The position numbers were made by a program, and so were the translations under genes. From Spartobacteria bacterium (lineage in GTDB: Bacteria > Verrucomicrobiota > Verrucomicrobiia > Chthoniobacterales > UBA10450): a DNA stretch of 64,000 bases. This document shows positions 17,098-64,000 of the stretch, one piece after another. The notes beneath the pieces were generated by a model. The model did no database searches. It saw nothing but the letters and a program-made list of their open reading frames with translations, and was not told where the DNA came from. Position 1 is the first letter of the stretch, and each line of letters begins with the position of its first letter. Location: the NCBI GenBank assembly GCA_003167555.1, contig PMSN01000014.1:124001-188000 (forward strand). Reading direction: 5' to 3'.

Positions 17098-17674
17098 CGT
17101 GGTCTCCGGCGAAAATTTCCCGGCGCAACCAGGCTTTGGCCATTCTCCATTCGCGTTTCACTGTGCGCGGAGAAACGTCGAGCACTTCGCCCACCTCATC
17201 GTTCGTCAGGCCGCCGAAGAAGCGAAGTTCCACGATCTGGCTTTGGCGGGGATCGAGCGCGAGCAGATCTTTCAGCGCATCGTCGAGCGCGACCAAATCG
17301 ACGCTGCGTTCCGCGGAAGGCGCCAACGCCTCATCGAAGGCAAGTTTATCCCAGCCGCCTCCCCGTTTTTCCGCGCGATGGCTGCGCGCGTAATCGACCA
17401 GAATCCGCCGCATGAGTTGCGCGGCCACGCCGAAGAAGTGGGCGCGGTTTTGCCAGGTGGTGGTGCTTTGGTCGACCAGCCGCAAATACGCCTCGTGCAC
17501 GAGGCCAGTCGCCTGCAACGTGTGATCGGGACGTTCGCGCTGCAGATATTGGCGCGCGAGCTGGCGCAATTCTTCGTAGACCAGCGGCATCAGCCTCGCA
17601 GGCGCTTCCCGATCACCCCCGCTCCAATCGATGAGCATTCGCGTGACCTCTTCCCTTGGCGCCAGCGAAATCAT
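17081..17674 (-). CDS. ECF-type RNA polymerase sigma factor, kinase-linked
   Basis: A 197-residue sigma factor. The sigma-2 region has ATGLVHEAYLRLVDQ and RAHFFGVAAQLMRRILVDYAR; the sigma-4 helix-turn-helix has QIVELRFFGGLTNDEVGEVLDVSPRTVKREWRMAKAWLRREI. This pattern belongs to the ECF subfamily abundant in Planctomycetes and Verrucomicrobia (the TIGR02999 type). There is no anti-sigma factor gene. Instead the next gene, overlapping by 17 bp, is a Ser/Thr kinase, so control by phosphorylation is likely. It is divergent from the 1992-residue secreted protein, a plausible target, with a 224-bp intergenic promoter region. Confidence 0.93.
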   Translation of the reverse strand: MISLAPREEVTRMLIDWSGGDREAPARLMPLVYEELRQLARQYLQRERPDHTLQATGLVHEAYLRLVDQSTTTWQNRAHFFGVAAQLMRRILVDYARSHRAEKRGGGWDKLAFDEALAPSAERSVDLVALDDALKDLLALDPRQSQIVELRFFGGLTNDEVGEVLDVSPRTVKREWRMAKAWLRREIFAGDHDAVRQ

Positions 17675-17898
17675 GGAGGGAAGCTTTCTGTGCTCATATC
17701 GTCGTCATCTGCTTTATCGGTGCAAAACGGAGAATACAGCAGGCTCCCCCGCCTGGGCAATTTCAAACGAAGCCTCGAAGGCGACTGAGCCGCGCTAGTG
17801 GAACCCTGCGCGGGGTGTGTCCGCAAATATTTTAAAAAAATCATGGCCCCCTTTCGCCCCGGTTCCCGCTTTGACTCAATGAAGGAGCCTGCATTACC

Positions 17899-47347: not shown

Positions 47348-47443
47348 GGTCACGATCCGAACGCGAACGGCTTGATTCGTGTGGTCGCGGTGCAGCCGGA
47401 TGGGAAGATTCTCATCGGCGGCGATTTTACCACCCTCACGCCC
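47345..47443 (+). pseudogene. Stranded delta-60 repeat fragment
   Basis: The frame reads HDPNANGLIRVVAVQPDGKI then LIGGDFTTLTP, a textbook single delta-60 unit (FxPxANGxVxxLAVQPDGKILxGGxFT), of which real proteins have many. Here one unit stands alone with no start or signal peptide of its own; the frame ends at 47488. I read it as a leftover of a delta-60 surface protein gene, joined to a half repeat. Confidence 0.7.
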
Positions 47444-47494: not shown

Positions 47495-48229
47495 GTGTCC
47501 GGAAACAACTGCGCGGGTTTAGAAAACGCCTTTGTCACTACGCACTGGAGCGTAGTGTTGGCGGCACAAGAGCGATCTCCGGCAGCGGAAGCAGCCTTGG
47601 AAAAACTTTGCCGCACCTATTGGTGGCCGCTTTATGGATTTGTGAGGCGGCAAGGTAATAGTCCCGAGGAAGCGCAGGATCTGACGCAAGGTTTTTTCGC
47701 AATGCTGCTGGAGCGAAGAGATTTCGAGAGTGTCCGGCGCGAGAAAGGACGCTTGCGTTCCTATCTGCTTGTGTCGCTCAAGAATTTTCTGGCGAAAGCG
47801 CATCGCCGGGAGATGGCCGTGAAGCGAGGAGAAGGTCAATCGCTTGTTCCCCTCGACGAGCTGCTGGCGCGGGAGAGCGCCGACCTGGAGCCGGCGGACA
47901 CTCTGAGTGCCGACAAAATTTATGAGCGCCGCTGGGCTTTGACGTTGCTTGAACAAGTGCTGGCGCGTCTCGAGGACGACTATCGAGTTGCCGGTAACGT
48001 GCCTCTGTTCGAACAGCTCAAGGAATTGCTCGCCGATGAACCGGGCCGTCCGTCGCAGGCGGACATTGCCACTGGATTAGGAATGACGGAGAACGCGGTG
48101 AAGCAGGCGTTTCACCGCTTGCGCCAGCGTTACCGGGAGTTGTTGCATGAAGAAATTGCCCACACCGTCGCGGCGCCGGGCGATGTCGAGGACGAGCTGC
48201 GTCATTTCATTTCTGTGTTGCAAACGTAA
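47495..48229 (+). CDS. ECF-type RNA polymerase sigma factor, kinase-linked
   Basis: A 244-residue sigma factor. TTHWSVVLAAQERSPAAEAALEKLCRTYWWPLYGFVRRQGNSPEEAQDLTQGFFAMLLER is the region-2 signature of a large verrucomicrobial/planctomycete ECF group; AKAHRREMAVKRGEG follows. Region 4 is atypical: EDDYRVAGNVPLFEQLKELLADEPGRPSQADIATGLGMTENAVKQAFHRLRQRYRELL. A GTG start is used. The stop is 3 nt before the kinase gene, so the pair is translationally coupled. This parallels the sigma/kinase pair at 14497-17674 but the two sigma factors belong to visibly different subgroups. Confidence 0.92.
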   Translation: MSGNNCAGLENAFVTTHWSVVLAAQERSPAAEAALEKLCRTYWWPLYGFVRRQGNSPEEAQDLTQGFFAMLLERRDFESVRREKGRLRSYLLVSLKNFLAKAHRREMAVKRGEGQSLVPLDELLARESADLEPADTLSADKIYERRWALTLLEQVLARLEDDYRVAGNVPLFEQLKELLADEPGRPSQADIATGLGMTENAVKQAFHRLRQRYRELLHEEIAHTVAAPGDVEDELRHFISVLQT

Positions 48230-48232
48230 CCC

Positions 48233-51091
48233 ATGAAAGAATTTGGGGCAGTACAAGTCGAGACGACAGATCGACAGAGAACCGAGATGATAAACGTGGC
48301 CAGAGTTTGCGCAAAGTGCGGAGCGGCGGTCTTCCCGGACGCGCCACGAGGTTTTTGCAGCGTTTGTTTGTTCAGGACCGGCTTGGGCGAGTTCGGGGAG
48401 GAAAATGACGCGGCGCGTGAACCAGCCGCCACGCCAATGCAGATGGATTTCGGCGACTATGAGTTGCTCGAGGAAATCGGCCGCGGCGGACAGGGCGTCG
48501 TCTATCGCGCGCGGCAGAAAAGTCTCAATCGCACAGTCGCACTAAAAGTGATTGGTCTTGGTCGTTGGGCGAGCACGCCCCATTTGAAACGATTTCGTTA
48601 CGAAGCGGAGGCGGCGGCGAGTCTGGAGCATCCGCAAATCGTTCCGATCTACGAAATCGGCGAGCGCGACGGTTCCTGTTATTTTAGTATGAAATTCGTC
48701 GAAGGCGGTCAGCTGGACGAGGTCGTTAGGCGCGAGCGGATGTTAACCCGGCACACCGCGGAATTGCTGGTAAAGATTGCGCGCACGGTTCAGTTCGCCC
48801 ATGAGCGGGGAATTCTTCATCGCGACATCAAGCCGGGCAACATTTTGTTAGATCGACAAGGCGAACCGCATTTGACCGATTTCGGTTTGGCGCGCCTGAT
48901 TGAACAGGAAAGCACGGTCACAAACTCATTCGATGTCATGGGCACTCCGAGCTACATGGCGCCGGAGCAGGCCGCGGGTCACACGAAGGAGCTTACAGCT
49001 GCGGTCGATGTTTACGCGCTCGGCGCGGTCTTTTATCAGATGCTCACCGGCCAGCCGCCATTCGCAGGTGGCACGACCTACGAAACGATTCGATTAGTCA
49101 TCGAGACCGAGCCGCGGAATCCGCGGCTTTGGAATCCAAAAGTAGATGTCGATCTTGCGACGATCTGCCTGAAGTGCTTGGAGAAGGATCCGAAAAAGCG
49201 TTACGAAACGGCCGAAGCGCTCGCCCAGGATGTCGAGCGCTGGCTTCGTCATGAGCCCATTCGCGCCCGTCCCACCGGCATTTTCGCGCGCGGCCGTAAA
49301 TGGGTGCGGCGCAATCCAGCCGCCGCCATCTCAGCGGCCTCGCTGGCCGGTCTGGCGATTGCGGTGGGCGTCCTCATTTGGAGAAGCGACTTCATCCGCC
49401 CTTTGCCCTCCACTGGCATCGCCGTGTTGCCTTTCGAAAATCTGAGTGAAGACAAAGACAACGCCTACCTGGCCGATGGAATCCAGGGCGAGATTCTGAC
49501 GCGTTTATCGAAGATTGCTGACCTGAAAGTCATTTCGCGGACATCTACGCAAAATTACAAGAGCCGGCCGGAAAACCTGCGTGACATCGCTAGGCAACTT
49601 GGCGTCGCCCACATCCTGGAAGGAAGCGTGCAGAAGAGCGGCGAGGCCGTGCGCGTCAACGTGCAGCTGATCAAAGCGGCCAACGGTTCTCATCTTTGGG
49701 CCGACACCTATGACAGAAGACTAATTGACATCTTCACAGTCGAGACTGAGGTGGCCAGGGCCATCGCTGATCAGTTGCGGGCGAAGCTCACTGGTCAAGA
49801 AGAGCAAGTTATCGCGGACAAACCAACCGGCAACCCCGAGGCCCACGATGCCTACCTGCGCGGGCTGGCTTATAGTCTGAGACCTACATACGTACCGGCC
49901 AACGCCCTTGCTGCACAGAGATATCTCAGGGAAGCGGTGCGGTTGGACCCGAAGTTCGCCCTTAGCTGGGCGTTGCTGTCATACGTGGATGCGCGCGAAT
50001 ACATCACACGGAATCTGCAACCAACGCTTGCCCTCCGTGAGGAGACACGGCGGGCGGCTGAAACTGCGCTTACTCTTCAGCCGAACCTCGGCGAGGCGGT
50101 ACTCGCCAAAGGGTATTATCATTACGCCTGTCAAAAGGATTACAAGAGTGCCGAGCGTTACTATGAGCAAGCACGCCAGCTCCTGCCGAATAGCAGCCGG
50201 ATTCCTGAATTGCTGGCCTACGCCGCGCGGAGGAGAGGCCGGTGGGACCAGAGCGAGTCGTATTTCAACGAAGCCGAGCGGCTTGACCCGCGCAATGTTT
50301 ATCTGCTTACCCAGCACGCACAAACCCATATCTTACGCCGCCGTTTCCCTGAAGCGCTGCGAAAGCTTGAGCAGGTTCTCAACATTACACCGGACGATCC
50401 CGACACGCTTGCGATAATGGCGGGTATCGCACAAGCCGAGGGCGACCTGCCGCGGGCTTCGGCCCTCCTTGCTCCGATCCGCCTGGCGGTCGACGACCCC
50501 AGCGTTTTAAAGACACAAGTTTACCAGGCGATCCTGGAGCGCCACCCTGCACCGGTCATCGCTGCGTTAAAGGAAATATTGGTGAAGCCTGATTCCGCGT
50601 TGGGTTATTACAATGGTGAACGGCGCTTCTGGTTAGGCTGGGCGCAAGAAGTGGGCGGCGACCATGCCGGCGCCCAAGAAACGTGGCAACAGGCGCGCAG
50701 CGAACTGGAATCTTTCGTCGAGGAGCAGCCGGAAAATAATAGCCTGACTGAAGGTTTGGCCCTGACCAATATGTTTCTTGGGAACAAAGCCGCAGCGTTG
50801 TCTTGGGCCGAACGCGCGATCGCCGCGATCCCGATCGAGAAAGACGCGATGACTGGTCCTCGGGAGCTCGAGATTCTCGCCCGGGTAGCGGCGCAGGCCG
50901 GAGAGCCCGACCGCGCGATTGCCGCTTTACAGAAGCTGCTCTCGATCCCGTACAGTGGCGCCCTGGTTGAGAGCGTGCCGCTCACTCCTGCGCTGCTCCG
51001 CCTTGATCCAATGTTCGATCCGCTGCGGAATGACGCCAGATTCCAGAAACTCGTCGCGCCCAGCTCGCCGAAAGAAGCAGTAGATCGGTAG
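48233..51091 (+). CDS. Ser/Thr protein kinase with zinc ribbon, TolB-like and TPR regions
   Basis: A 952-residue membrane kinase. An N-terminal zinc ribbon (C26-x2-C29, C42-x2-C45) is followed by a Hanks kinase domain: IGRGGQGVVYRARQKSLNRTVALKVI, HRDIKPGNILLDRQG, LTDFGLARL, GTPSYMAPEQA and DVYALGAVFYQMLTGQPPF. A membrane helix (AAAISAASLAGLAIAVGVLIW, about 365-385) precedes a TolB/FlgO-like N-terminal fold (STGIAVLPFENLSEDKDNAYLADGIQGEILTRLSKIADLKVISRTS...GSVQKSGEAVRVNVQLI) and then TPRs to the end. The start could be 18 codons later (MINVARVCAKC). It lies 3 nt after the sigma gene and 125 nt before the beta-helix protein gene, suggesting one regulatory locus. Confidence 0.92.
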   Translation: MKEFGAVQVETTDRQRTEMINVARVCAKCGAAVFPDAPRGFCSVCLFRTGLGEFGEENDAAREPAATPMQMDFGDYELLEEIGRGGQGVVYRARQKSLNRTVALKVIGLGRWASTPHLKRFRYEAEAAASLEHPQIVPIYEIGERDGSCYFSMKFVEGGQLDEVVRRERMLTRHTAELLVKIARTVQFAHERGILHRDIKPGNILLDRQGEPHLTDFGLARLIEQESTVTNSFDVMGTPSYMAPEQAAGHTKELTAAVDVYALGAVFYQMLTGQPPFAGGTTYETIRLVIETEPRNPRLWNPKVDVDLATICLKCLEKDPKKRYETAEALAQDVERWLRHEPIRARPTGIFARGRKWVRRNPAAAISAASLAGLAIAVGVLIWRSDFIRPLPSTGIAVLPFENLSEDKDNAYLADGIQGEILTRLSKIADLKVISRTSTQNYKSRPENLRDIARQLGVAHILEGSVQKSGEAVRVNVQLIKAANGSHLWADTYDRRLIDIFTVETEVARAIADQLRAKLTGQEEQVIADKPTGNPEAHDAYLRGLAYSLRPTYVPANALAAQRYLREAVRLDPKFALSWALLSYVDAREYITRNLQPTLALREETRRAAETALTLQPNLGEAVLAKGYYHYACQKDYKSAERYYEQARQLLPNSSRIPELLAYAARRRGRWDQSESYFNEAERLDPRNVYLLTQHAQTHILRRRFPEALRKLEQVLNITPDDPDTLAIMAGIAQAEGDLPRASALLAPIRLAVDDPSVLKTQVYQAILERHPAPVIAALKEILVKPDSALGYYNGERRFWLGWAQEVGGDHAGAQETWQQARSELESFVEEQPENNSLTEGLALTNMFLGNKAAALSWAERAIAAIPIEKDAMTGPRELEILARVAAQAGEPDRAIAALQKLLSIPYSGALVESVPLTPALLRLDPMFDPLRNDARFQKLVAPSSPKEAVDR

Positions 51092-51216
51092 CAGCGACTC
51101 GCTCAATCCCTGTCCGCGGCCGAACCCTGGCGCGCCGTAGTGCCGCAGTTGCGACGGGACAGCGTAGCAAATTTTCCGCGTAACCTCACGGCATACTTGG
51201 GACAGTACACCTGTGA

Positions 51217-54200
51217 ATGGCCACAAAAGCACTCCGCCTTCACCGAAAAACTGAAACGAAACGGCCTGGTGAGATTCAACCGCAAGCGCGCCTTGCAAAA
51301 GGCATGCTTATCTTGGCCATCGCGGTGTTCAGTCTATCAATTGGACCGGGGGCTGCGCAAGCAGCGACGCGCACAGTCACGAGTCTAAATGATAGCGGAG
51401 GCGGCACATTGCGCGACACGCTTGCTGCTGCGGCGGCGGGAGACACGATTCAGTTCTCCGTCACCGGCCAAATCAAGCTGGACAGCTCGCTGACCATTAC
51501 CAAGAACGTTACGATCAGCGGTCCAGGACAAACCCACCTGACCGTGACACGGGATAGCGGCACCGTCATTCTTTTTGTCATCAATAGCGGCCTTACCGTG
51601 AGCATTTCAGATATCTCAATCACGAACGGACAGGGGGGCGATTTTCAGCCCGGGGGCATCCTAAATCATGGCAACCTGACGCTGGAGTCCTGTAGTTTCA
51701 GCGCGAATGTCGGTCAATATGCTGCCGGGGCGATTGACAGTGATGGTCCGCTGACTGCCACCGACTGCGTTTTCAGCAATAACAGTTTGGGCGCTATTAC
51801 CACCAGAAGCTCCGCGGCATTTACCTCCTGCACTTTCACGAACAACGGCACAGTTGGCGGCGCCATCGAAAACACAGCGACGGGGCAGTTAATGGTTAAT
51901 GGCTGCACTTTTAGCAATAACAGCGGCGGTCAAGGTGGAGCGATTGGCAACTTCGGCAACGGTCCGTCGTCAACTGTTGCGGTACAGAATAGTTTTTTCT
52001 ACGAAAACAGCTCTTATAATGTAGGCGGCGCGATCTGGAGCCAGACCGGTACGGTCACGATCGTCGGTTGTACCTTTGCCAAAAATACTGCCCAAGACAA
52101 CGGCGGCGCGGTTTATAATGATAGCGGATCTCTTACTGTGCGTAACTCTACCTTGGTCGGGAATAGTGCGGCCATTGGGGGTGGCATCTACAACCAGGGC
52201 AACGGTAATAATTATACGGGAAACGCCACCGTTACCGCGAGTACGCTATCCGACAATAGCGCCCCCAATGGCGGAGGTATCTACAACCTGGGGACAAATA
52301 ACGGCCGGGCTCTTTTGATCCTTGAAGATACGATCCTCTACAGCGCGAACACTACGCCCGGCGCTAATCTCATCAGTACTGGCCCGGGCGCGAGCGTCAC
52401 GTCGCATGGTTACAACTTAAGTAGTGACAATGCCAGCGGTTTCCTCACCGCTGCCGGTGACCAGATCAATATCGATCCCAAGCTCGGGCCGCTGCAAGAC
52501 AACGGCGGCCCAACGCAAACGATGGCTTTGCTTCCCGGCAGTCCGGCCTGGGATAAAGGCAAGAGCTTTAGCCTGACCGAGGATCAACGTGGATCGCCGC
52601 GGCCAGTTGATATTCCCAGCATTGCAAACGCGGGTGGCGGCGACGGCAGCGATATCGGCGCGGTCGAAATGGATGCCATCCAGACTGGACCCGCCTTTGT
52701 AGTCACAACCACGGACGATCACGATGACGGAGCCTGTAGCTTCGCTGATTGCGCGCTCCGCGAAGCCATTGATGCGGCCAACGCGGCCTCTGGATCTACC
52801 GTTAGCTTCAAGAGCCAGGTGACGGGCGTTATCACTTTACAGGCGACTCTAGGCGGCCTCACGATCAGCAATTCCGTTACCATCGTTGGACCTGGTGCGC
52901 GGACGCTGGCTGTCAGCGGAAATGGCGCAGTCCGCGTTTTCAATTTCACCAGCGGAACCAGCGTGATTTCCGGCCTCACGATTCAAGGCGGGTCTGCCGT
53001 GGGAGCCACCGGGCAAGCAGGTACGGGTGGCGGAATTTCCAATTCGGCATCCCTGACTGTTAACGACTGCATGTTCATCGAAAATAGCGCGACCGGTGGC
53101 AGCAGTATTAGCGAGGGCAACTCTGGCGGGAAAGGGCAGGGAGGCGCGATCTATAGCGCCGGCATTCTTACGCTGAATCGCTGTACGTTTTCTGAAAACA
53201 CCGCTACCGGGGGTAACCCCGGCTTCGCCATTACCAAAGCGCCCGGCGGCAACGGCGGCGCGGGCCAGGGCGGTGCGGTCTTCAACGAGGCAGCCCATTC
53301 TCTGACGATTAGCAGTTGTTCCTTCTTCGCGAACATCGCTCGCGGCGGCCACGGCGGTAACGGCAGCACCGGTGGGAATGGCGGCGCCGGAAATGGAGGA
53401 GCTATCTGCAATGCGGGACAGATGACTACGACCGCGTGCACGATAAGCAGCAACGCCGGCGGTAACAGCAATGGAGGCACCGGCCCCGGCGGCAACGGTT
53501 CGCCCGGTCCAGCCAGTGGCGGGATCACAAACATTAGCGGAGGCACCGCGATCGTGAGGGACAGCATCAGCGCGAACAACACCGCGAACGGCGGCGCTGG
53601 CGCGGATGTTGACGGCGCATTCACCTCTGGCGGTTACAACTTGTTAGGTACCGCCGATCATAGCACCGGTTTTACCGCCACCGGAGACATCAAAGGCACG
53701 GATGCCTCGGTCTTAAACGCCGGCGTGCTCGGACCACCATCGAACAATGGCGGACTGACCGACACCTTCAACCTGACGTCAAACAGCCCTGCAATCGACG
53801 CCGGAAAGTCGTTCGGACCGGCGACCGATCAGCGCGGACTGCCCAGGATACGGGACAATCCAAGTATAGCTAATGCAGTTGGAGGCGACGGCAGCGATAT
53901 CGGAGCATTGGAAGTTCAAAATATTGGAGCAAGTCCGACCCCGACACCTACTTCAACACCGATATCTACGCCAACACCTACCCCGACGCCGACAGCTACG
54001 CCAATACCGACGGCTACACCTACACCTACACCTACCGCGGCGCCTACACCTACACCTACCGCGACGCCAAGCGCTACACCAATACCAACGCCAACACCTA
54101 CTCCAACGCCAGCCCAGCCCACCGTGCTGGCCAACATCTCGACCCGATTGCTGGTGGGAACAGGAGACAATGTCTTAATCGGCGGCTTCATCATCACCGG

Positions 54201-54876
54201 GACCGATCCGAAGAAGGTATTAATCCGCGCGATAGGACCTTCGCTGCCTCTGGCCGGAGTGCTGGCCGATCCTACTCTTGAGCTCTATCAAGGCACCACG
54301 CTCCTGGAATCGAACGACAATTGGATGGATAGCCCGAACAAGCAAGCCATCATCGATAGCACCATCCCGCCCAGCAACCCGCTGGAATCAGCCATCGTAA
54401 GGAGTGTGCCGCCCGGCAACTACACCGCGATTGAGCGTGGGGTAAATAACGGGACTGGGATAGGAGTAGTAGAAGCGTACGACCTGGATACCTCCGCTAA
54501 CTCAAAGCTGGCAAACATTTCCACCCGTGGCTTGGTCCAGACAGGAGACAACGTCTTGTTCGCAGGTACGATTGTAGTAGGACAGGCCTCGCAAAAGGTA
54601 ATTATCCGCGCGCTGGGTCCTTCCACCGGCGTCCCCGGGGCGCTGGCCGATCCCACGCTGGAACTGCACGACGGAAACGGAGCGCTGCTGGAAACGAACG
54701 ATAACTGGGTGGATAGCCCGAACAAACAAGCGATCATCGACAGCACCATCCCGCCCCCGAATAACGCGGAATCGGCCATCGTGCGGATATTAACTCCAGG
54801 CAACTACACCGCCATTGTGCGCGGTGTGAATGACTCGACCGGCATCGCGGTCGTGGAAGTTTACGCGCTGAACTAG
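51217..54876 (+). CDS. Secreted CSLREA/choice-of-anchor Q beta-helix protein with tandem C-terminal module
   Basis: A protein of up to 1219 residues. The signal peptide is [20 protein letters not shown], so the effective start may be 51304; an ATG at 51217 adds 29 polar residues and neither has a strong Shine-Dalgarno. Two beta-helix regions consist of units such as [22 protein letters not shown] and [16 protein letters not shown], rich in Gly/Asn/Ser. Each closes with a choice-of-anchor Q pattern ([21 protein letters not shown]...DQRGSPRP...GSDIGAVE and a second ending GSDIGALE). A CSLREA-like block ([20 protein letters not shown]) starts the second. A PTPTP linker precedes the two GDNVLIGGF modules. 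Likely a cell-surface adhesin-like protein. Confidence 0.88.
53931..54116 (+). repeat. In-frame CCTACACC/CCAACGCC hexamer tract (Pro-Thr linker)
   Basis: About 60 codons of alternating Pro and Thr/Ala/Ser, built from 6-bp units (CCTACA, CCAACG, CCGACG). Unit gain or loss keeps frame. A shorter version occurs at 57778-57846 in the next kelch gene; the gene at 58616 has none. Confidence 0.85.
54119..54876 (+). repeat. Tandem C-terminal module DNA, copy 1 of 3
   Basis: About 760 bp encoding [20 protein letters not shown] to VVEVYALN-stop. Copies 2 (57850-58608) and 3 (61107-61867) share long identical stretches, for example GGGACTGGGATAGGAGTAGT and onward through the GAAGCGTACGACCTGGATACC region. 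Two half-modules of about 125 residues each, both with I(R/G)A(I/L)GPS and LESNDNW/LETNDNW. Confidence 0.95.
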
Positions 54877-54883
54877 CCATAAA

Positions 54884-54991
54884 ATGAAGCACTCCGCGTT
54901 CATTTCATTTGTGAGCGCAACATCTAAGGCTGCGCTTGTCCTGGTTTCGGTTGCCGTGCTGCTGGCGGGCAACGTTTTGCCACGCCGATGA
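54884..54991 (+). CDS. Stranded signal-peptide leader (35 aa) overlapping the next start
   Basis: A 35-codon frame starting MKHSAFISFVSATSKAALVL, with a hydrophobic core VSVAVLLAG, ends with TGA overlapping the ATG of the following kelch gene (ATGA at 54988-54991). It is clearly homologous to the signal peptide that starts the kelch gene at 58616 (MKHAAFFSFVRATSKAALFA), and both are preceded by the same TAGCCATAAA. The mature protein it once led has been replaced by a gene with its own, different signal peptide. It might still be translated and couple the two genes. Confidence 0.65.
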   Translation: MKHSAFISFVSATSKAALVLVSVAVLLAGNVLPRR

Positions 54992-57900
54992 AAACGCTCT
55001 GCCTTCGTCTTTCGATTCTCGCGGCGATCCATTGGTGCAGTCTCTTTGTGGCGCTGGGTGCGCCGTTTACTTTTAGCAGCACGGGCAGCCTCGCGACCGG
55101 CCGCGATAATGATACGACCACCTTGTTGCAAAACGGAAAGGTATTGGTGGCAGGCGGATATAACGGCAACCCGCTGGCGAGCGCCCAGCATTACGATCCG
55201 GCCACCGGTATTTGGGCTTCGACGGGCAGTCTCGCAACCGCGCGCCAGAACCACACTGCGACTTTGCTACCAAATGGCAAGGTGCTCGTCACAGGAGGAC
55301 GAGGGACCGGCAGTGTCTCTCTTACTAGCGCGGAACTCTACGACCCGATAGGCGGGACTTGGACGGCGACCGGCAGCCTGACGAACGCACGGTTTAACCA
55401 TACTGCAACCTTGCTGTCCAACGGTAAGGTCCTGGTTGCCGGGGGATTTAATAGCACCAGCGGCGAGATGGTCAGTGCGGAACTCTACGATCCGGCGAGC
55501 GGCACCTGGAAGGCAACCGGCAATCTTGTAACCGCACGCAGTCTTCACACGGCGACGCTGCTTTACAACCAACAGGTCCTGGTCGCGGGAGGACAAGGCG
55601 CCAGTAACAACCCCCTGAATGTTGCGGAACTCTACGACCCGATAGGCGGGACTTGGACGGCGACTAGCACTCTCGTGACCGCACGTTATAGTCAGACCGC
55701 GACCTTGCTGCCCAGTGGCAAGGTGCTGGTCGCTGGAGGACAACAAAACGGCGCTGTGAGGACCGCGGAAATCTACGATCCGGCGGGACGAACATGGACG
55801 GCGACCGGCATCCTTGTAACTGCGCGTTATTTCCACACGGCGGCGCTGTTGCCTAACGGTAAGGTCCTGGTTGCCGGGGGATTTAATAGCACCAGCGGCG
55901 AGATGGTCAGTGCGGAGCTTTACGATCCGGCGGCCGGGACCTGGGCAGCCACCGGCACTCTCGCTGCCGCGCGTTCTAATCAGACAGCGACGTTGCTGCC
56001 CAGCGGCAACGTGCTTGTCGCGGCAGGTTTTAATGGCGCTAACACTGGCGCCGCCAAGTATCTCACGAGCGCGGAGCTCTACGATTCGGCGAGCGGGAGT
56101 TGGGATACGACGACCCTCCAACCCCTAATCGTGGCAAGCGAGAAGCATACGGCGACCTTGCTATCTAGTGGCAAGGTGCTGGTCGCGGGAGGAAGATCCT
56201 TCGGCAACTATCCGGCGAGCACGGAGCTCTTCGATCCGGCGAACGGCACCTGGACGGCGACCGGCGATCTCTACTCCAGCTTCGGGCGCGCTAGTCATAC
56301 GGCAACCTTGTTGCCGAGCGGCAAGGTGCTCATCGCGGGAGGAGATAAAGGTGGCGCTCTCACGAGCGCGCAGCTCTACGATCCGGCAAGCGGGACGTGG
56401 AAACCCACGAGCGACCTCGGCAAAGCCCGCTATTTTCACACGGCGACGTTATTGACGAACGGTACGGTGCTGGTCGCGGGAGGATTAGGCAGCGGCTCCG
56501 CCGGTTATCTCACGAGCGCGGAGCTCTACGATCCGGCGAGCGGGGCCTGGACTGCCACCGGCAGCCTCAACGTCGCACGCGGGAATCACACGGCGACGTT
56601 GCTCCCCAACGGCACGGTGCTCGTCGCGGGAGGGCAGGACGGCACCAACCAAGACGTCGTTCCCAGGAGCGCGGAGCTCTACGATCCGGCGAGCGGGACC
56701 TGGACGATAGCCACCCGCGGCTTCAACAGCGACTACGTTTCTCACACGGCGACGTTGCTGCCAAACGGCAAGGTGCTCGTCGCAGGAGGACTGTACCAAG
56801 GCACCATAAGCCCTGCTGCGGAGCTCTATGATCCGGCGAGCGGGACCTTGATGGGCACCGGCAACCTCAACACCGCTCGCGGTAGTCATACGGCGACGTT
56901 ACTACCTAACGGCAAAGTGCTCGTGGCGGGTGGAATTGGCAGCGGCTTCAACGTCTACCTCACGAGCGCGGAGCTCTACGATCCGGCGAGCGGGAGTTGG
57001 ACGCCGACCGGCAACCTCCACACTACACGCTATTCTCACACGGCCACGCTCTTGCCTAACGGCAAGGTGCTGGCCGGAGGAGGTAATGACGGCAGCAATG
57101 ATACCAAGAGCACGGAGCTCTATGATGTCGGCCTTGGATTCCTGAGCGCATGGCAGCCTCGCATCGGGTCAGCACCCTCAGCCCTCCCATCCGGCAGTCC
57201 CCTCACACTCACCGGTTTCTTCCAAGGCGTCTCGCAAGCTTCGGGCGGAAACACTCAAGATTCGTCCAGTAACTACCCGATCGTGCAACTGCGCAGCCTC
57301 GAGAGCAGTCAGGTCGCGTTCCTTCCAACGGCTGGCTGGCAGGGCTCAGTCTTCACCTCGATCCCGGTGAGCGGCTTTTCTGTCGGCCCGGCGCTGGTGA
57401 CTGTCTTTATCAACGGCATCCCGAGTGATGCCAAGTATCTGTTAGTCGCACAGACGACCCCAGCATTCGGCACCCAAGCCTCGGGGACGACCCCGGTGGG
57501 CGGCAGCATTTCGGATTCTGCGGTCCTTGACAATGGCGCGACGTTGACCGGGACGATCACCTTCAAGTTGTTTGGACCTAATGACGCAACCTGCGGCGCC
57601 GCCGCCGTTTTCACTTCTACGAAGAGTGTCTCCGGCAATGGGAGCTATACTTCGGATTCGTTCACTCCGACTGCTGCTGGCACTTACCGGTGGGTGGCAA
57701 CCTATAGCGGAGATGCGAACAATAACCCCGTAACGGGCGCATGCAATGATGCGAATGAATCAGTGGTTGTGACACCGGCGCCTACACCAACGCCAACGCC
57801 AACACCAACAGCGACGCCAACACCTACACCTACTCCAACGCCAGGCCAGCCCACAGTACTGGCCAATATCTCCACCCGGTTACTGGTGGGAACAGGCGAC

Positions 57901-58608
57901 AATGTCTTAATTGGCGGCTTTATCGTAAGTGGCACGCAGACGAAGAAGGTATTAATCCGCGCGATAGGACCTTCGCTGCCGCTCGGCGGAGTGCTGGCCG
58001 ATCCTACCCTTGAGCTCTATCAGGGCACCACGCTCCTGGAATCGAACGACAACTGGATGGATAGCGCGAACAAGCAAGCCATCATCGACAGCGGCGCCGC
58101 GCCGCTGAACAACCTGGAATCGGCGATCGTGAGGAGTGTGGCGCCCGGCAACTACACCGCGATTGAGCGTGGAGTAAACAACGGGACTGGGATAGGAGTA
58201 GTAGAAGCGTACGACCTGGATACCTCCGCTAACTCAAAGCTGGCTAACATTTCCACGCGCGGCTTGGTCCAGACAGGAGACAACGTCTTGTTCGCGGGCA
58301 CGATCGTAGTCGGACAGGCCTCGCAAAAAGTAATTATCCGCGCGCTTGGCCCTTCGACCGGCGTCCCCGGGGCGATGGCCGATCCCACGTTGGAACTGCA
58401 CGACGGAAGCGGAACGCTGCTGGAAACGAATGATAACTGGGTGGATAGCCCGAACAAACAAGCGATCATCGACAGCACCATCCCGCCCCCGAATAACCTG
58501 GAATCGGCCATCGTGCGGATATTAACTCCAGGCAACTACACCGCGATCGTCCGCGGCGTGAATAACTCTACCGGCATCGCGGTGGTGGAAGTTTACGCGC
58601 TGAACTAG
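54988..58608 (+). CDS. Secreted kelch-array protein 1 with E-set, Ig-like and tandem C-terminal modules
   Basis: A 1206-residue protein. The signal peptide (MKTLCLRLSILAAIHWCSLFVALG) is followed by about 14 kelch units of some 50 residues with the pattern H-T-A-T-L-L-P-N-G-K-V-L-V-A-G-G...A-E-L-Y-D-P-A-S-G-T-W. These would form two seven-bladed propellers. A beta-sandwich as found after galactose-oxidase propellers follows (PSALPSGSPLTLTGFF...GPALVTVFINGIPS), then an Ig-like domain (GSISDSAVLDNGATLTGTITFKLFGPND), a PTPTP linker and the two C-terminal modules. No catalytic residues recognisable. A 62-bp block is repeated exactly inside the array. Probably surface-bound ligand-binding protein. 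Confidence 0.87.
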   Translation: MKTLCLRLSILAAIHWCSLFVALGAPFTFSSTGSLATGRDNDTTTLLQNGKVLVAGGYNGNPLASAQHYDPATGIWASTGSLATARQNHTATLLPNGKVLVTGGRGTGSVSLTSAELYDPIGGTWTATGSLTNARFNHTATLLSNGKVLVAGGFNSTSGEMVSAELYDPASGTWKATGNLVTARSLHTATLLYNQQVLVAGGQGASNNPLNVAELYDPIGGTWTATSTLVTARYSQTATLLPSGKVLVAGGQQNGAVRTAEIYDPAGRTWTATGILVTARYFHTAALLPNGKVLVAGGFNSTSGEMVSAELYDPAAGTWAATGTLAAARSNQTATLLPSGNVLVAAGFNGANTGAAKYLTSAELYDSASGSWDTTTLQPLIVASEKHTATLLSSGKVLVAGGRSFGNYPASTELFDPANGTWTATGDLYSSFGRASHTATLLPSGKVLIAGGDKGGALTSAQLYDPASGTWKPTSDLGKARYFHTATLLTNGTVLVAGGLGSGSAGYLTSAELYDPASGAWTATGSLNVARGNHTATLLPNGTVLVAGGQDGTNQDVVPRSAELYDPASGTWTIATRGFNSDYVSHTATLLPNGKVLVAGGLYQGTISPAAELYDPASGTLMGTGNLNTARGSHTATLLPNGKVLVAGGIGSGFNVYLTSAELYDPASGSWTPTGNLHTTRYSHTATLLPNGKVLAGGGNDGSNDTKSTELYDVGLGFLSAWQPRIGSAPSALPSGSPLTLTGFFQGVSQASGGNTQDSSSNYPIVQLRSLESSQVAFLPTAGWQGSVFTSIPVSGFSVGPALVTVFINGIPSDAKYLLVAQTTPAFGTQASGTTPVGGSISDSAVLDNGATLTGTITFKLFGPNDATCGAAAVFTSTKSVSGNGSYTSDSFTPTAAGTYRWVATYSGDANNNPVTGACNDANESVVVTPAPTPTPTPTPTATPTPTPTPTPGQPTVLANISTRLLVGTGDNVLIGGFIVSGTQTKKVLIRAIGPSLPLGGVLADPTLELYQGTTLLESNDNWMDSANKQAIIDSGAAPLNNLESAIVRSVAPGNYTAIERGVNNGTGIGVVEAYDLDTSANSKLANISTRGLVQTGDNVLFAGTIVVGQASQKVIIRALGPSTGVPGAMADPTLELHDGSGTLLETNDNWVDSPNKQAIIDSTIPPPNNLESAIVRILTPGNYTAIVRGVNNSTGIAVVEVYALN
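57850..58608 (+). repeat. Tandem C-terminal module DNA, copy 2 of 3
   Basis: Second copy of the block at 54119-54876. It encodes [19 protein letters not shown] and DSGAAPLNNLESAIV where copy 1 has [19 protein letters not shown] and [15 protein letters not shown]. In these two positions it agrees with copy 3. Confidence 0.95.
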
Positions 58609-58615
58609 CCATAAA

Positions 58616-61600
58616 ATGAAGCACGCCGCGTTCTTTTCATTTGTGAGGGCAACATCCAAGGCTGCGCTCTTCGCCGCCGCTGCCACGCTCTTGTACGCGC
58701 CTTCAGCTGCCGGGGCGCCGTTTACTTTTAGTAACACGGGCAACCTCGCGCACGCGCGCGATAATCACTCGGCGACATTGCTCTCCAACGGCAAGGTGCT
58801 GATCGCAGGAGGATATAACGGCAACCCGCTGGCGACCGCGGAGCTCTACGATCCGGCGAGCGGGACTTGGGCGGCGACCGGAAACCTGGTAGCCGCACGC
58901 TATAATCACACCGCGACATTGTTGCCCAATGGCAAGGTGCTGGTCGCAGGAGGGCAGATCAACGGCGGATCGCTGGCGACCGCGGAGCTGTACGATCCGG
59001 CGAGCGGGACTTGGGCGGCGACCGGCAGTCTCGCGAACGCACGCTATGGTCAGACCGCGACCTTGCTCTCCAATGGCAAGGTGCTGGTCGCAGGAGGGTT
59101 CAATCCCAGCAGCAGCTATCTGGCGAGCGCGGAACTTTACGATCCAGCGAGCGGCAACTGGACGGGAACCGGCAGTCTCGTCACTACACGCTATCTTCAC
59201 ACGGCAACGTTGCTGCCTAACGGCAACGTGCTGGTCGCGGGAGGACAGGGCAGCGCCAACGGCAGCACTCTGAAGAGCGCGGAGCTCTACAATCCCGCGA
59301 ATGCGACCTGGTCGACAACTAACAACCTGGTGAGCGCGCGCTATAGCCACACGGCGACGTTGCTGCCCAATGGCAAGGTGTTGGTCGCAGGCGGGCAGAA
59401 TCCGAGCGCTTTGGCGAGCGCGGAACTCTACGATCCGGCGAACGCGACTTGGTCGACGACTGGCAACCTGGCGAGCGCACGCTACACTCACACGGCGACG
59501 TTGCTGCCTAACGGCAAGGTGCTGGTCGCCGGAGGGTTTAACACCGGCTACCTAACGAGTGCGGAACTCTACGATCCGGCTGGCGGGACGTGGTCGACGA
59601 CCGGGACCCTCGCTGCCGCGCGTTCCAATCAGACGGCGACGTTGCTGCCGAGCGGCAGCGTGTTGGTCGCGGCCGGCTTCAATGGCGCTAACACCGGCAC
59701 CGCCAAATATCTGGCGAGCGCGGAGCTGTATGATCCAGCGAGTGGCAACTGGACGGGAACCGGCAGTCTCGGCGCCTCACGAGCAGCTCACACGGCGACG
59801 TTTTTGCCCAACGGCAAGGTGCTGGTCGCGGGAGGTGTCGAGACCAACGCAAGCGGCGGTGGTCTGAAGAGCGCGGAGCTTTACGATCCCGCGAGCGGGA
59901 ATTGGGCGGCGACCGGCAGTCTCGCGACCGGACGTGCCGGTCATACCGCCACCTTGCTGTCCAACGGCAAGGTGCTGGTCGCAGGCGCCGGGTTTAATAG
60001 TCTGGCGAGCGCGGAACTCTACGATCCGGCGAGCGGTACTTGGACGGCGACCGGCAGTCTCGCGAACGGACGTTCCAGCCACACCGCGACCTTGCTACCC
60101 AATGGGAAAGTTCTGGTCGCAGGCGGGTCGCAGCCGTCGGCAAACCACGGTGATCCCGAGGCTCTGGAGAGTGCGGAGCTCTACGATCCGGCGAGCGGCG
60201 TGTGGTCGGAGACGGGGAGCCTCGCGGCGGCACGTTATTCTCACACCGCGACGTTACTACCCAATGGCAAGGTCCTGGTCGCAGGAGGGGTCAACGCTAA
60301 CGGCTTTCCGGCGAGTGCGGAACTGTACAACCCGGCAACCGGAAGTTGGACGCCGGCCGACAGCCTCAAGACGCCACGCAGCAATGCCACGGCAACATTG
60401 CTGCCTAACGGCAAGGTGTTAGTTGCAGGAGGTTATGATACCAACAACAATCACATAGGCGTCGCGGAACTCTACGATCCAGCGAGCGACGCGTGGACGG
60501 CGACCGGCAGTCTGATCAAGCCACGCGCATACCACACGGCAACGTTATTGCCCGATGGCAAGGTTCTGGTCGCGGGAGGACAAAGCGATGACTCCTTTGA
60601 ACCGAGTGCCGAGCTCTACGATCCGGCGAGTCGGATCTGGACGCAGACCGGTAGCCTTACCGTGGCACGCGACGTCCATACGGCAACGCTACTAGCCAAC
60701 GGCAGGGTGCTGGCCGTCGGGGGAGAAGGTTTCCCCGCCCAAACTTTGACAAGCGCGGAGCTTTACGACGAAGGGCTTGGATTTATACCTGTTTGGCAGC
60801 CACAAATCACCACGGCTCCTTCCACCTTGACGCTGGGTGGCAGCCTCGCACTTACCGGCACGCGCTTCCAAGGCATCTCGCCAGCCTCCGGCGGCAACTT
60901 CCAGGACTCATCGACTAACTATCCGCTCGTGCAATTGCGCAACGTCGATAGCAGCCAGGTCACCTTCCTGCCCGTGAGTCCGGCAACTGGCTGGTCGAAT
61001 ACCGCGTTTACCTCAACACCTGTGACTGGCTTTCCGGCCGGCCCCGCGCTCGTGACCGTCTTTACCAATGGCATCCCGAGCAACGCGCGGTATTTGGTGG
61101 TTGTCCCGCCCACCGTGCTGGCCAACATCTCGACGCGGTTGCTGGTGGGAACAGGCGATAATGTTCTCATTGGCGGATTCATCGTCACCGGCACGCAGAC
61201 GAAGAAGGTATTAATCCGCGCGATAGGACCTTCGCTGCCGCTCGGCGGAGTGCTGGCCGATCCTATCCTTGAGCTCTATCAAGGCAGCACGCTCCTGGAA
61301 TCGAACGACAACTGGATGGATAGCGCGAACAAGCAAGCCATCATCGACAGCGGCGCCGCGCCGCTGAACAACCTGGAATCGGCGATCGTGAGAAGTGTGC
61401 CGCCCGGCAACTACACCGCGATTGAGCGAGGAGTAAATAACGGGACTGGGATAGGAGTAGTAGAAGCGTACGACCTGGATACCTCGGCTAATTCGAAGCT
61501 GGCGAACATTTCTACCCGCGGTTTGGTCCAGACAGGAGACAATGTCTTGTTCGCGGGCACGATCGTAGTCGGACAGGCTTCGCAAAAAGTAATTATCCGC

Positions 61601-61867
61601 GCGCTCGGCCCTTCCACCGGCGTCCCCGGCGCGATGGCCGATCCCACTCTGGAGTTGCACGACGGAAACGGAGCGTTGCTGGAAGCGAATGATAACTGGG
61701 TCGATAGCCCGAACAAACAAGCGATCATCGACAGCACCATCCCGCCCCCGAATAACGCGGAATCGGCCATCGTGCGGATATTAACTCCAGGCAACTACAC
61801 CGCCATTGTGCGCGGCGCGAATAACTCTATCGGCATCGCGGTCGTGGAAGTTTACGCGTTGAACTAG
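58616..61867 (+). CDS. Secreted kelch-array protein 2 with tandem C-terminal modules
   Basis: A 1083-residue paralogue of the preceding protein. The signal peptide MKHAAFFSFVRATSKAALFA then GAPFTFSNTGNLAHARDNHSATLL is followed by about 14 kelch units and the same E-set-like sandwich (PSTLTLGGSLALTGTRFQGI...GPALVTVFTNGIPSNARYLVV). It joins directly to the C-terminal modules without the Ig-like domain and PTPTP linker of kelch protein 1. Unit 7 of the array (LVAAGFNGANTGTAKYLASAELYD) corresponds to the same unit in the paralogue, so the array was duplicated as a block. The gene lies 7 nt after the previous stop, indicating co-transcription. Confidence 0.88.
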   Translation: MKHAAFFSFVRATSKAALFAAAATLLYAPSAAGAPFTFSNTGNLAHARDNHSATLLSNGKVLIAGGYNGNPLATAELYDPASGTWAATGNLVAARYNHTATLLPNGKVLVAGGQINGGSLATAELYDPASGTWAATGSLANARYGQTATLLSNGKVLVAGGFNPSSSYLASAELYDPASGNWTGTGSLVTTRYLHTATLLPNGNVLVAGGQGSANGSTLKSAELYNPANATWSTTNNLVSARYSHTATLLPNGKVLVAGGQNPSALASAELYDPANATWSTTGNLASARYTHTATLLPNGKVLVAGGFNTGYLTSAELYDPAGGTWSTTGTLAAARSNQTATLLPSGSVLVAAGFNGANTGTAKYLASAELYDPASGNWTGTGSLGASRAAHTATFLPNGKVLVAGGVETNASGGGLKSAELYDPASGNWAATGSLATGRAGHTATLLSNGKVLVAGAGFNSLASAELYDPASGTWTATGSLANGRSSHTATLLPNGKVLVAGGSQPSANHGDPEALESAELYDPASGVWSETGSLAAARYSHTATLLPNGKVLVAGGVNANGFPASAELYNPATGSWTPADSLKTPRSNATATLLPNGKVLVAGGYDTNNNHIGVAELYDPASDAWTATGSLIKPRAYHTATLLPDGKVLVAGGQSDDSFEPSAELYDPASRIWTQTGSLTVARDVHTATLLANGRVLAVGGEGFPAQTLTSAELYDEGLGFIPVWQPQITTAPSTLTLGGSLALTGTRFQGISPASGGNFQDSSTNYPLVQLRNVDSSQVTFLPVSPATGWSNTAFTSTPVTGFPAGPALVTVFTNGIPSNARYLVVVPPTVLANISTRLLVGTGDNVLIGGFIVTGTQTKKVLIRAIGPSLPLGGVLADPILELYQGSTLLESNDNWMDSANKQAIIDSGAAPLNNLESAIVRSVPPGNYTAIERGVNNGTGIGVVEAYDLDTSANSKLANISTRGLVQTGDNVLFAGTIVVGQASQKVIIRALGPSTGVPGAMADPTLELHDGNGALLEANDNWVDSPNKQAIIDSTIPPPNNAESAIVRILTPGNYTAIVRGANNSIGIAVVEVYALN
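61107..61867 (+). repeat. Tandem C-terminal module DNA, copy 3 of 3
   Basis: Third copy, encoding the end of kelch protein 2. It matches copy 2 in the first half ([19 protein letters not shown]) and copy 1 in parts of the second half ([21 protein letters not shown]), a mosaic pattern expected from gene conversion. Confidence 0.95.
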
Positions 61868-61939
61868 ACCTGAGTTTATTAGGGATGTGATTACTAGGTT
61901 CCAATCCGGCGGAATAAAGTTGGCAGCAGGCTGGCGCTT

Positions 61940-64000
61940 ATGAAAACCACTGGTCTCCGCCTCTTAATTCTCACCGGGATCCATTGCTGGGGTCTCTTTA
62001 CGGCGATGGGTGCGCCGTTTACTTTCACCAGCACAGGTAATCTGGCGCAGGGACGCACTCTTCACACGAGTACCTTGTTGCAAAACGGGAAGGTGTTGGT
62101 CGCCGGAGGAGCTAACCCGGGCATCGTGGGCACCGCGGAACTCTACGACCCGTTGATCGGGACCTGGTCGGCGACGGGCAATCTGATAACTCCGCGCGAG
62201 GCTCACACCGCGACGATGTTGCGCAACGGCGCGGTGCTCGTCACCGGAGGGGTTGGCGCCAGTAATACCGTTCTCACCACCGCGGAACTCTACGATCCAG
62301 CGACGGGGAAATGGAAAGCGACCGGCAATCTCGCGAGCGCACGCTATGCCCATACCGCCACCTTGCTCCCTAACGGCAAGGTGCTGGTCGCAGGAGGATA
62401 CGCCACCAACGGCTTTCAAGGCACCGCGGAACTCTACGATCCGGCGACCGGGACTTGGACGGCAACCGGCAGCCTCATCACGGCGCGGGATAATCACACG
62501 GCGACCCTGCTCTCTAGTGGCAAGGTGCTCGTCGCGGGAGGACAAGGCAACGTTACGGGCGGCACTTTGAACACGGCGGAGCTTTATGATCCGGCGAGCG
62601 GGATGTGGGCAGTTACCGGGAGTCTTGGCAGCGCCCGTTGTTTTCACACGGCGACGTTGCTTTCCAGCGGCAAGGTGCTCGTCGCAGCAGGACAAAACGG
62701 CGGCGCCGTGGGATCAGCGGAGCTTTATAATCCGGCGAGCGGGACATGGAATACGACCCCCAATCCGGTCAATTCCCGTTACAGTCACACGGCAACCTTG
62801 TTGCCTAATGGGATGGTGCTGGTGGCGGGAGGAACTGACGGCACGAATTCTTTAGCCAGCGCGGAGCTTTACAGTCCGGGCCAAGGCGCCAACGGCGCCT
62901 GGACCGCAACCGCCAACCTGGTGATCCCCCGTTCTAATCAGACCGCGACCCTGCTGCCTACTGGCAGCATACTCTTCGCGGCTGGGTTCGACGGTTTTCA
63001 AAAAATTCAGAGCGCCAAATATCTGGCCAGCGCCGAGCTGTACGATCCTGCGAGTAGCGGGGGCTGGGGGAGCCCGCCGGTGATGGCAACACCACGCGAA
63101 GAGCACACCGCAACGATGCTGGCCAATGGCCAGCTGCTGGTCGCGGGCGGGCTGAACGGCAGCGGCGCGCTGGCGAGCGGGGAGCTCTTCGATGTGGTAA
63201 AAGAGCAATGGACGGCCACAGGCAACCTCAACACCGCGCGCTATGGTCACACGGCGACGTTACTACCCAATGGACAGGTCCTGGTCGCAGCGGGAAGTGA
63301 CAGCGGTGTCAATGCTCTCGCGAGCGCGGAACTGTATGACCCGGCAAGCGGGAAATGGACGGCCACGGCGGGCAATCTCAACACCGCGCGCGCTGAGCAT
63401 ACGGCGACTTTGCTGCCCAACGGTCAGGTGCTCGTCGCAGCAGGATCTAATAGCAGTCACCAATTTTCCACGAGCGCGGAACTGTATAACCCGGCGAGTG
63501 GAACGTGGTCGGCAACCGGCAGCTTAGCCACCGCCCGCGGGTTGCATACGGCCACTTTGCTACCCAATGGCAAGGTACTGGTTACAGGAGGATTTGACAT
63601 CAATTTCAATGTTTCCGCGAGCGCGGAACTGTATGACCCGGCAAGCGGGAAATGGACGGCCACGAACAACCTCAATACCGCGCGCCGAAATCACACGGCG
63701 ACGCTGCTCTCCAACGGAAAGGTGTTAATCGCGGGAGGGTCTGGAACCAACGACAATTTCGGTCAACTGGCGAGTGCGGAGCTGTACGATCCAGCGAGCG
63801 GCACGTGGACGGTAACCGGCAGTCTCGCCACCGCCCGCGACTTCGCAACGGCTACACTACTTCCCAACGGGAAAGTGCTGATCGCATGCGGGCTAGGAAA
63901 CAATACTGGCGCTCTTGCGAGTGCGGAGACATACGACCCGGGAAGCGGTAAATGGACGTCCGCGGGCAACCTCACCGTTGCGCGCTCTGAGCACACGGCG
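61940..64000 (+). CDS. Secreted kelch-array protein 3 (3' end outside window)
   Basis: 687 codons are open to the window edge. The signal peptide MKTTGLRLLILTGIHCWGLF then TAMGAPFTFTSTGNLAQGRT resembles that of kelch protein 1 (MKTLCLRLSILAAIHWCSLF) more than that of protein 2. About 13 kelch units are visible with the same HTATLLPNGKVLVAGG...AELYDPASGTW pattern. Units 6-8 are irregular (AELYSPGQGANGAW, FAAGFDGFQKIQSAKYLASAELYD, GELFDVVKEQW). A 72-nt intergenic gap to protein 2 lacks the CCATAAA spacer seen before the other genes. C-terminal modules are expected but not in view. Confidence 0.87.
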   Translation, partial: MKTTGLRLLILTGIHCWGLFTAMGAPFTFTSTGNLAQGRTLHTSTLLQNGKVLVAGGANPGIVGTAELYDPLIGTWSATGNLITPREAHTATMLRNGAVLVTGGVGASNTVLTTAELYDPATGKWKATGNLASARYAHTATLLPNGKVLVAGGYATNGFQGTAELYDPATGTWTATGSLITARDNHTATLLSSGKVLVAGGQGNVTGGTLNTAELYDPASGMWAVTGSLGSARCFHTATLLSSGKVLVAAGQNGGAVGSAELYNPASGTWNTTPNPVNSRYSHTATLLPNGMVLVAGGTDGTNSLASAELYSPGQGANGAWTATANLVIPRSNQTATLLPTGSILFAAGFDGFQKIQSAKYLASAELYDPASSGGWGSPPVMATPREEHTATMLANGQLLVAGGLNGSGALASGELFDVVKEQWTATGNLNTARYGHTATLLPNGQVLVAAGSDSGVNALASAELYDPASGKWTATAGNLNTARAEHTATLLPNGQVLVAAGSNSSHQFSTSAELYNPASGTWSATGSLATARGLHTATLLPNGKVLVTGGFDINFNVSASAELYDPASGKWTATNNLNTARRNHTATLLSNGKVLIAGGSGTNDNFGQLASAELYDPASGTWTVTGSLATARDFATATLLPNGKVLIACGLGNNTGALASAETYDPGSGKWTSAGNLTVARSEHTA

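Follow-up and report, generated by a model that had tools for sequence, protein, structure and literature searches.

An ECF sigma factor gene followed by a Ser/Thr kinase gene and a run of genes for large repeat proteins raises the question of whether these genes form one regulatory unit, and of how this unit relates to a second sigma-kinase pair in the same window. The window is the whole stretch of DNA analysed (64,000 nt; G000:C3:124001-188000), part of a 4.2-Mb genome (G000; 29 contigs, 98% complete) whose nearest named relatives are soil Verrucomicrobiota (Spartobacteria / Chthoniobacterales, Candidatus Udaeobacter). All the genomes compared were draft assemblies; one of them, G005, appears to be MAG palsa_1414 (L055), with which it shows exact sequence overlap. 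Literature searches for a sigma-kinase arrangement with secreted cargo in Verrucomicrobiota found nothing specific. The unit under study is called cassette 2, and the second one cassette 1 (Table 1).

Table 1. Features of the two cassettes (numbering of the window)
Feature	Position	Strand	Remarks
Cassette-1 Ser/Thr kinase with TPR region	14497..17097	-	
Cassette-1 ECF sigma factor, type SB, ECF43-like	17081..17674	-	QATG in region 2.2
Motif A1, putative promoter of cassette-1 giant	17844..17872	+	Sole site in genome
Cassette-1 giant, 1992 aa	17899..23877	+	Head-to-head with its sigma gene; C-terminal module 23092-23874
Delta-60-repeat coding remnant, just upstream of cassette-2 sigma gene	47351..47440	+	Frame reads HDPNANGLIRVVAVQPDGKILIGGDFTTLT
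Cassette-2 ECF sigma factor, type SA, not ECF43	47495..48229	+	GTG start; region 2.2 EAQDLTQ, acidic form
Cassette-2 Ser/Thr kinase	48233..51091	+	N-terminal four-Cys ribbon, kinase domain 76-332, C-terminal TPR region
Motif B, putative promoter for cassette-2 sigma factor	51172..51204	+	TTTTCCGCGTAACCTCACGGCATACTTGGGACA; sole site in genome
Cargo 1, beta-helix type, 1219 aa	51217..54876	+	NCBIfam choice_anch_Q, CSLREA
Cargo 1, tandem C-terminal module	54118..54873	+	
Abandoned kelch 5′ end between cargo 1 and cargo 2	54877..54987	+	Reads MKHSAFISFVSATSKAALVLVSVAVLLAG
Cargo 2, kelch-array, 1206 aa	54988..58608	+	C-terminal module 57850-58605
Cargo 3, kelch-array, 1083 aa, 14 regular repeats	58616..61867	+	C-terminal module 61109-61864
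Cargo 4, kelch-array, 1079 aa	61940..64000 in window	+	Ends at 65179, outside window
Cargo 5, beta-helix type, 1071 aa	65251-68466	+	Wholly outside window

Two sigma-kinase pairs of different types

The ORF coordinates bear out the original prediction that the sigma and kinase genes of cassette 2 lie 3 nt apart. Only the general ECF models of Pfam and NCBIfam matched this sigma factor, in which the acidic DxxD of region 2.2 is retained, not replaced. Type SA sigma factors keep DAQDLTQ at this point (EAQDLTQ in the window copy) and are therefore not ECF43; 26 of 28 of them have the Thr of the DLTQ motif. Three paralogs of the cassette-2 sigma factor (35–44% identity), each with a kinase, were found in G000. 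A kinase gene lies directly 3′ of cassette-2-type sigma genes in nearly all the relatives with room for one, and this adjacency is kept across a phylum. No anti-sigma gene was found beside the cassette-2 pair. A further SA pair (G000:C23:290203-292504; L041) is located downstream of the gene for a kelch protein lacking the C-terminal module described below, and represents a kelch/ECF link without that module. A row of about eight Ser/Thr kinase genes or gene fragments without ECF partners was seen in G007 (C1:96-115 kb; L211-L212).

In cassette 1, the kinase and sigma ORFs overlap by 17 nt. The sigma factor matched PF07638 and TIGR02999 (200 and 225 bits, above the cut-offs), models that we take to stand for ECF43. 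The acidic DxxD of its region 2.2 is replaced (HTLQATGLVHEAY), and a Thr, which aligns with the E in the AED of a solved ECF, occupies the phospho-site position. Two other sigma factors of this PF07638 type (SB) are present in G000. Most SB sigma factors read HTLQ[AP]T[AG]LVHEAY in place of the acidic AED motif of other ECFs, and throughout the seven same-genus genomes they are paired with kinases. Both the models matched and region 2.2 thus agree with the earlier assignment of the two sigma factors to different groups. In ECF43 sigma factors, the Thr of a QxT[AG] motif found in place of DxxD is phosphorylated by the kinase (PMC8999054, PMC13147305); the cassette-1 sigma factor has the same motif, and may be activated by phosphorylation of its Thr.

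The cassette-2 kinase has one membrane segment, near residues 364-382. In each of the two cassettes, the kinase contains a single strongly hydrophobic segment, placed between the kinase and TPR regions, which is consistent with a cytoplasmic kinase and a sensor outside.

Cargo genes and their common C-terminal module

A beta-helix protein gene and three kelch genes follow the cassette-2 pair on the same strand at gaps of 7 to 125 nt, as had been described; coordinates and domains agree on this, and PF13418/PF01344 kelch repeats were above cut-off in cargo 2–4. The four-member operon once proposed needs to be enlarged: there are five cargo genes, the fourth being cut by the end of the window and the fifth missed by it. 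The kinase gene and cargo 1 are separated by 125 nt, and gaps of 111, 7, 72 and 71 nt precede cargo 2 to 5; cargo 5 is followed by a 740-nt gap and then by unrelated genes. Gaps that never exceed 125 nt, with one of only 7 nt, correspond to the layout of a single transcript. The 7-nt gap aside, the spacers of the kelch genes give no independent sign of co-transcription, and a scan of the cassette-2 region for sigma-70 promoters and terminators revealed nothing above the expectation for shuffled sequence. The true start of cargo 1 may lie at 51304, ahead of a signal-peptide-like segment. In the orthologous cassettes, G005 has at least five cargo genes, as against five in G000, while in G003 the run of module genes extends over about 50 kb. 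The signal-peptide-like N-termini and the domain types of the cargo proteins would fit a surface location, and the presence of kelch, beta-helix and PPC-like parts suggests a role in binding or as a coat.

The cassette-1 giant and all five cargo proteins have the same tandem module at the C-terminus, with 61% identity between the module of the giant and that of one cassette-2 kelch protein; the original prediction of C-terminal modules common to both cassettes was therefore correct. The module is an internal duplication of a unit of about 125 aa. It was found at 86 places in the genome, in about 70 genes, and 123 of 130 complete ORFs have it at their extreme C-terminus. In six other species of the same genus, there are more than 50 copies per genome; outside the genus, fewer copies were present in some other families and none in many relatives. 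It gave no match above cut-off in Pfam or NCBIfam, both of which leave it unnamed, and none at E 0.001 to the C-terminal sorting tags of NCBIfam (PEP-CTERM, T9SS type). A sequence search against solved structures yielded only meaningless matches, and the structure model of the full-length module was too poor for use (pLDDT 55). The half-module was predicted to form a beta sandwich (pLDDT 83), and this model resembled the C-terminal domain of Tk-SP (Z 9.9), the collagen-binding domain of ColG (Z 8.9) and the PPC domain of a collagenase (Z 8.6). The half-unit may thus have a PPC/collagen-binding-like fold. The module differs from PPC in scoring 13.3 bits on PF04151 (gathering cut-off 25.9), in being a fixed tandem pair at the extreme C-terminus, and in forming a large paralogous family.

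Of the seven sigma-kinase pairs of G000, four adjoin a module gene (1.8% expected, p ~4e-6). The expectation was obtained by random placement on the real G000 gene map, which gave 0.45% for head-to-head arrangements and 1.8% for any adjacency. The sample was made up of the stretches around most G000 kinases and, from six further genomes of the genus, those around the full-length kinases. In these seven genomes, 21 of the 26 SB pairs with room upstream were head-to-head with a module gene within 700 bp (the SB p-value was computed on counts rounded down to 20/25), while 9 of 26 SA pairs had a module gene on either side. Since loci of one genus are not independent, counts were also made by sigma subgroup, seven of nine SB and five of nine SA subgroups being linked to module genes, and tests outside the genus are given below. 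Tandem repeats of a unit made of a module gene and a sigma-kinase pair were seen in G003 and G005. Most of the 70 or so module genes of G000 have no sigma-kinase neighbour. An example is a cluster of about 8–10 module genes on one strand (G000:C4:128186-167098; L037-L039), a stretch that has an assembly gap and in which no sigma-kinase pair was found.

Promoter-like motifs and exchange of cargo

Aligning the gap between the kinase and the cargo in four species revealed motif B, a 33-nt block that in the window ends 12 nt ahead of the first cargo ORF; its distance to start codons varies. The motifs were first spotted by eye and tested afterwards. Genome-wide, the motif B pattern occurs once in G000, four times in G003, three times in G005 and once in G001, every site being inside an orthologous cassette; it is absent from G002, G006, G007, G016 and G023, and its reversed control gave no matches. 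It is found only in genomes with a close ortholog of the cassette-2 sigma factor, and G002, with a 67%-identical sigma factor, lacks both motif B and module cargo. A matrix made solely from same-genus sites detected 17 sites in 15 foreign loci (score >19), counts that keep matches within coding sequence; the reversed matrix gave 0 sites, and permuted matrices averaged 0.05. Such coding matches, located at the sigma stop/kinase start in L057, L063, L237 and L238, were not taken as promoters. Beyond the kinase gene, motif B was present in 15 of 21 nearer relatives (missing in six) and in 0 of 16 distant ones; the matrix used for this count includes some of the counted sites, so the same-genus matrix is the clean test. 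In G003 and G005, motif B precedes several cargo genes, which indicates that neither array is transcribed as a single unit from a single promoter.

The intergenic regions of SB cassettes contain a different, two-box motif (TGGYCC..TTT, then TTT..CGC[T/A/G]TT) whose second box changes with the sigma subgroup; sites outside the training set of the matrix were found before second cargo genes. The A1 pattern occurs once in G000, three times in G003, four times in G005 and once in G002; none was found in six other genomes, and none for the control. Two A1 sites are far from any sigma gene, yet ahead of module genes, to which A1 is specific. A third motif, C (GATTTCGTGCAGC..C..TC.G.AATCCCTTTGGA), precedes two kelch-type cargo genes of the G003 array (G003:C2; L165, 3704-7429 and 2-3592) and is otherwise found with another SA subgroup, ahead of its cargo (L208, L216); the long G003 array therefore looks composite. 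One promoter for all module genes was considered and rejected, since A, B and C are distinct motifs and the majority of module genes have none of them. An unsupervised motif search was dropped, as it failed to separate a -10-like box from start regions and relied on orthologs; aligned two-box matrices were used instead.

What follows motif B in other genera is a gene for a small secreted beta protein, for a YadA-head-like protein carrying an S74 chaperone domain, or for some other protein bearing a signal peptide. Motif B lies ahead of YadA-head-like repeat proteins with a Peptidase_S74 chaperone tail in L080 (15046-16236), L059 (7948-9240) and L102 (6781-8598). Sister genera thus keep the pair and motif B with different secreted proteins in the slot, which directly demonstrates recruitment, and some of the cargo served by cassette-2-type pairs lacks the module. 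This occurrence of motif B before unrelated secreted proteins argues that sigma factor, kinase and motif are old, and the cargo exchangeable. A general link between the cassette-2 sigma factor and module cargo was rejected, L055 alone among 80 relatives having both. In the cassette-1 slot, once the module was removed, the G000 giant had no detectable similarity to the cargo of G003, G005 or G002, while the cargo of G003 and that of G005 are related to each other.

Two further features of cassette 2 bear on how its cargo changed. Where the delta-60-repeat remnant lies upstream of the sigma gene, the orthologous loci of G003 and G005 have an intact module gene, and the abandoned kelch 5′ end behind cargo 1 matches the 5′ end of cargo 3 almost exactly over some 60 nt. 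Both are traces of recombination among cargo genes.

The original prediction had the two pairs recruited independently to the same class of cargo, and saw in this a general surface-display system. An old pair and motif with exchangeable cargo support independent recruitment, as do the two unrelated ECF groups with separate kinases, repeatedly linked to the module in several species and each with its own motif. The single general system is not supported: most module genes lack a sigma-kinase neighbour, and cassette-2-type pairs also serve module-free cargo.

A proposed switch, its alternatives and known systems

We regard it as likely that cassette 2 works as a dedicated sigma/kinase switch whose slot takes exchangeable cargo, and that cassette 1 is a parallel, separately wired one. 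The membrane kinase would sense something outside the cytoplasm through its TPR region and activate the ECF sigma factor encoded beside it; the latter would initiate transcription at motif B, which lies just past the kinase gene, and so switch on a run of large secreted kelch and beta-helix proteins, whose PPC-like tandem module probably serves for export or attachment to the cell surface. The pair and motif B, common to other genera of the family, would be old, and the cargo would have been swapped in later in this lineage. Cassette 1 would act through an ECF43-type sigma factor, its own kinase and its own promoter-like motif. By analogy with EcfK/PknS, contact with a predator or neighbour is one possible signal. 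More tentatively, such genomes may contain several parallel, insulated sigma-kinase channels with their own promoter codes, the slots being refilled by recombination from the module-bearing family, so that each outside signal would call up a different, fast-evolving surface set; this wider reading is plausible but falls somewhat short of probable.

One alternative concerns the step between kinase and sigma factor. The sigma factor might be controlled by its own expression, the kinase having other targets: in the cassette-2 sigma factor, the acidic residues of region 2.2, which bind RNA polymerase, are retained, and ECFs outside ECF43 may work differently (PMC8999054). The adjacency of the pair across a phylum, the conserved Thr of DLTQ (26/28 SA) and the lack of a neighbouring anti-sigma gene point the other way, and make such an arrangement rather unlikely. 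It is unlikely that motif B is the operator of another regulator, or a conserved 5′ untranslated RNA element, rather than a sigma promoter. Its length and its variable distance to start codons would suit either, but from genome to genome it accompanies one sigma subgroup, and the cargo of the other sigma group has a different two-box motif, the second box of which varies with the sigma cluster.

Separate housekeeping promoters might drive the cargo, leaving the pair a passenger at the locus, and the several motif copies along the G003 and G005 arrays, part of the former with motif C, could be read in this way. In G000, however, sigma-70-like sites are no commoner than in shuffled sequence, one gap is of 7 nt and the sole motif B site precedes the first cargo gene, all of which makes a passenger role very unlikely. 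As for pair and cargo being neighbours by chance, module genes are numerous (about 70 in 4.2 Mb, many clustered), and such a gene also lies next to 5 of the 30 kinases that have no ECF partner. The adjacency counts (21/26 SB and 9/26 SA pairs, spread over most subgroups, against 0.45% head-to-head and 1.8% any adjacency when placement on the real gene map was random) refute chance as a general account; it could hold for single loci, but for the arrangement as a whole is hardly credible.

Very few kinase-activated sigma factors have been studied, and the literature found gave no target promoters for the Verrucomicrobiota groups. The comparative data presented here provide two cognate promoter-like motifs with their likely targets, together with an unnamed C-terminal module present on about 70 genes of one genome. 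Control of the surface of soil Verrucomicrobiota by sigma-kinase switches with interchangeable cargo can now be tested directly.

Among known systems, cassette 2 may be set beside ECF59, 61, 62 and 217, kinase-linked groups of Planctomycetes and relatives. Like these, it combines an ECF sigma factor and a kinase, whose gene is conserved beside the sigma gene, with an acidic region 2.2 and no anti-sigma factor; no regulon or promoter for the four groups was found described in the literature searched. The ECF43 systems EcfP/PknT (Vibrio parahaemolyticus) and EcfK/PknS (Xanthomonas citri), with their Hanks-type kinases, also have an ECF sigma factor beside a transmembrane Ser/Thr kinase. The cassette-1 sigma factor is like these phospho-activated ECF43 proteins in that QxT[AG] replaces DxxD, whereas that of cassette 2 keeps the acidic motif, so the published ECF43 activation mechanism is not directly transferable to it. 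The cargo differs as well, consisting here of large secreted repeat proteins, as against polymyxin resistance or a type VI system for EcfP/PknT and EcfK/PknS, and most cassette-1-type pairs, unlike the ECF43 systems studied, are head-to-head with one cargo gene.
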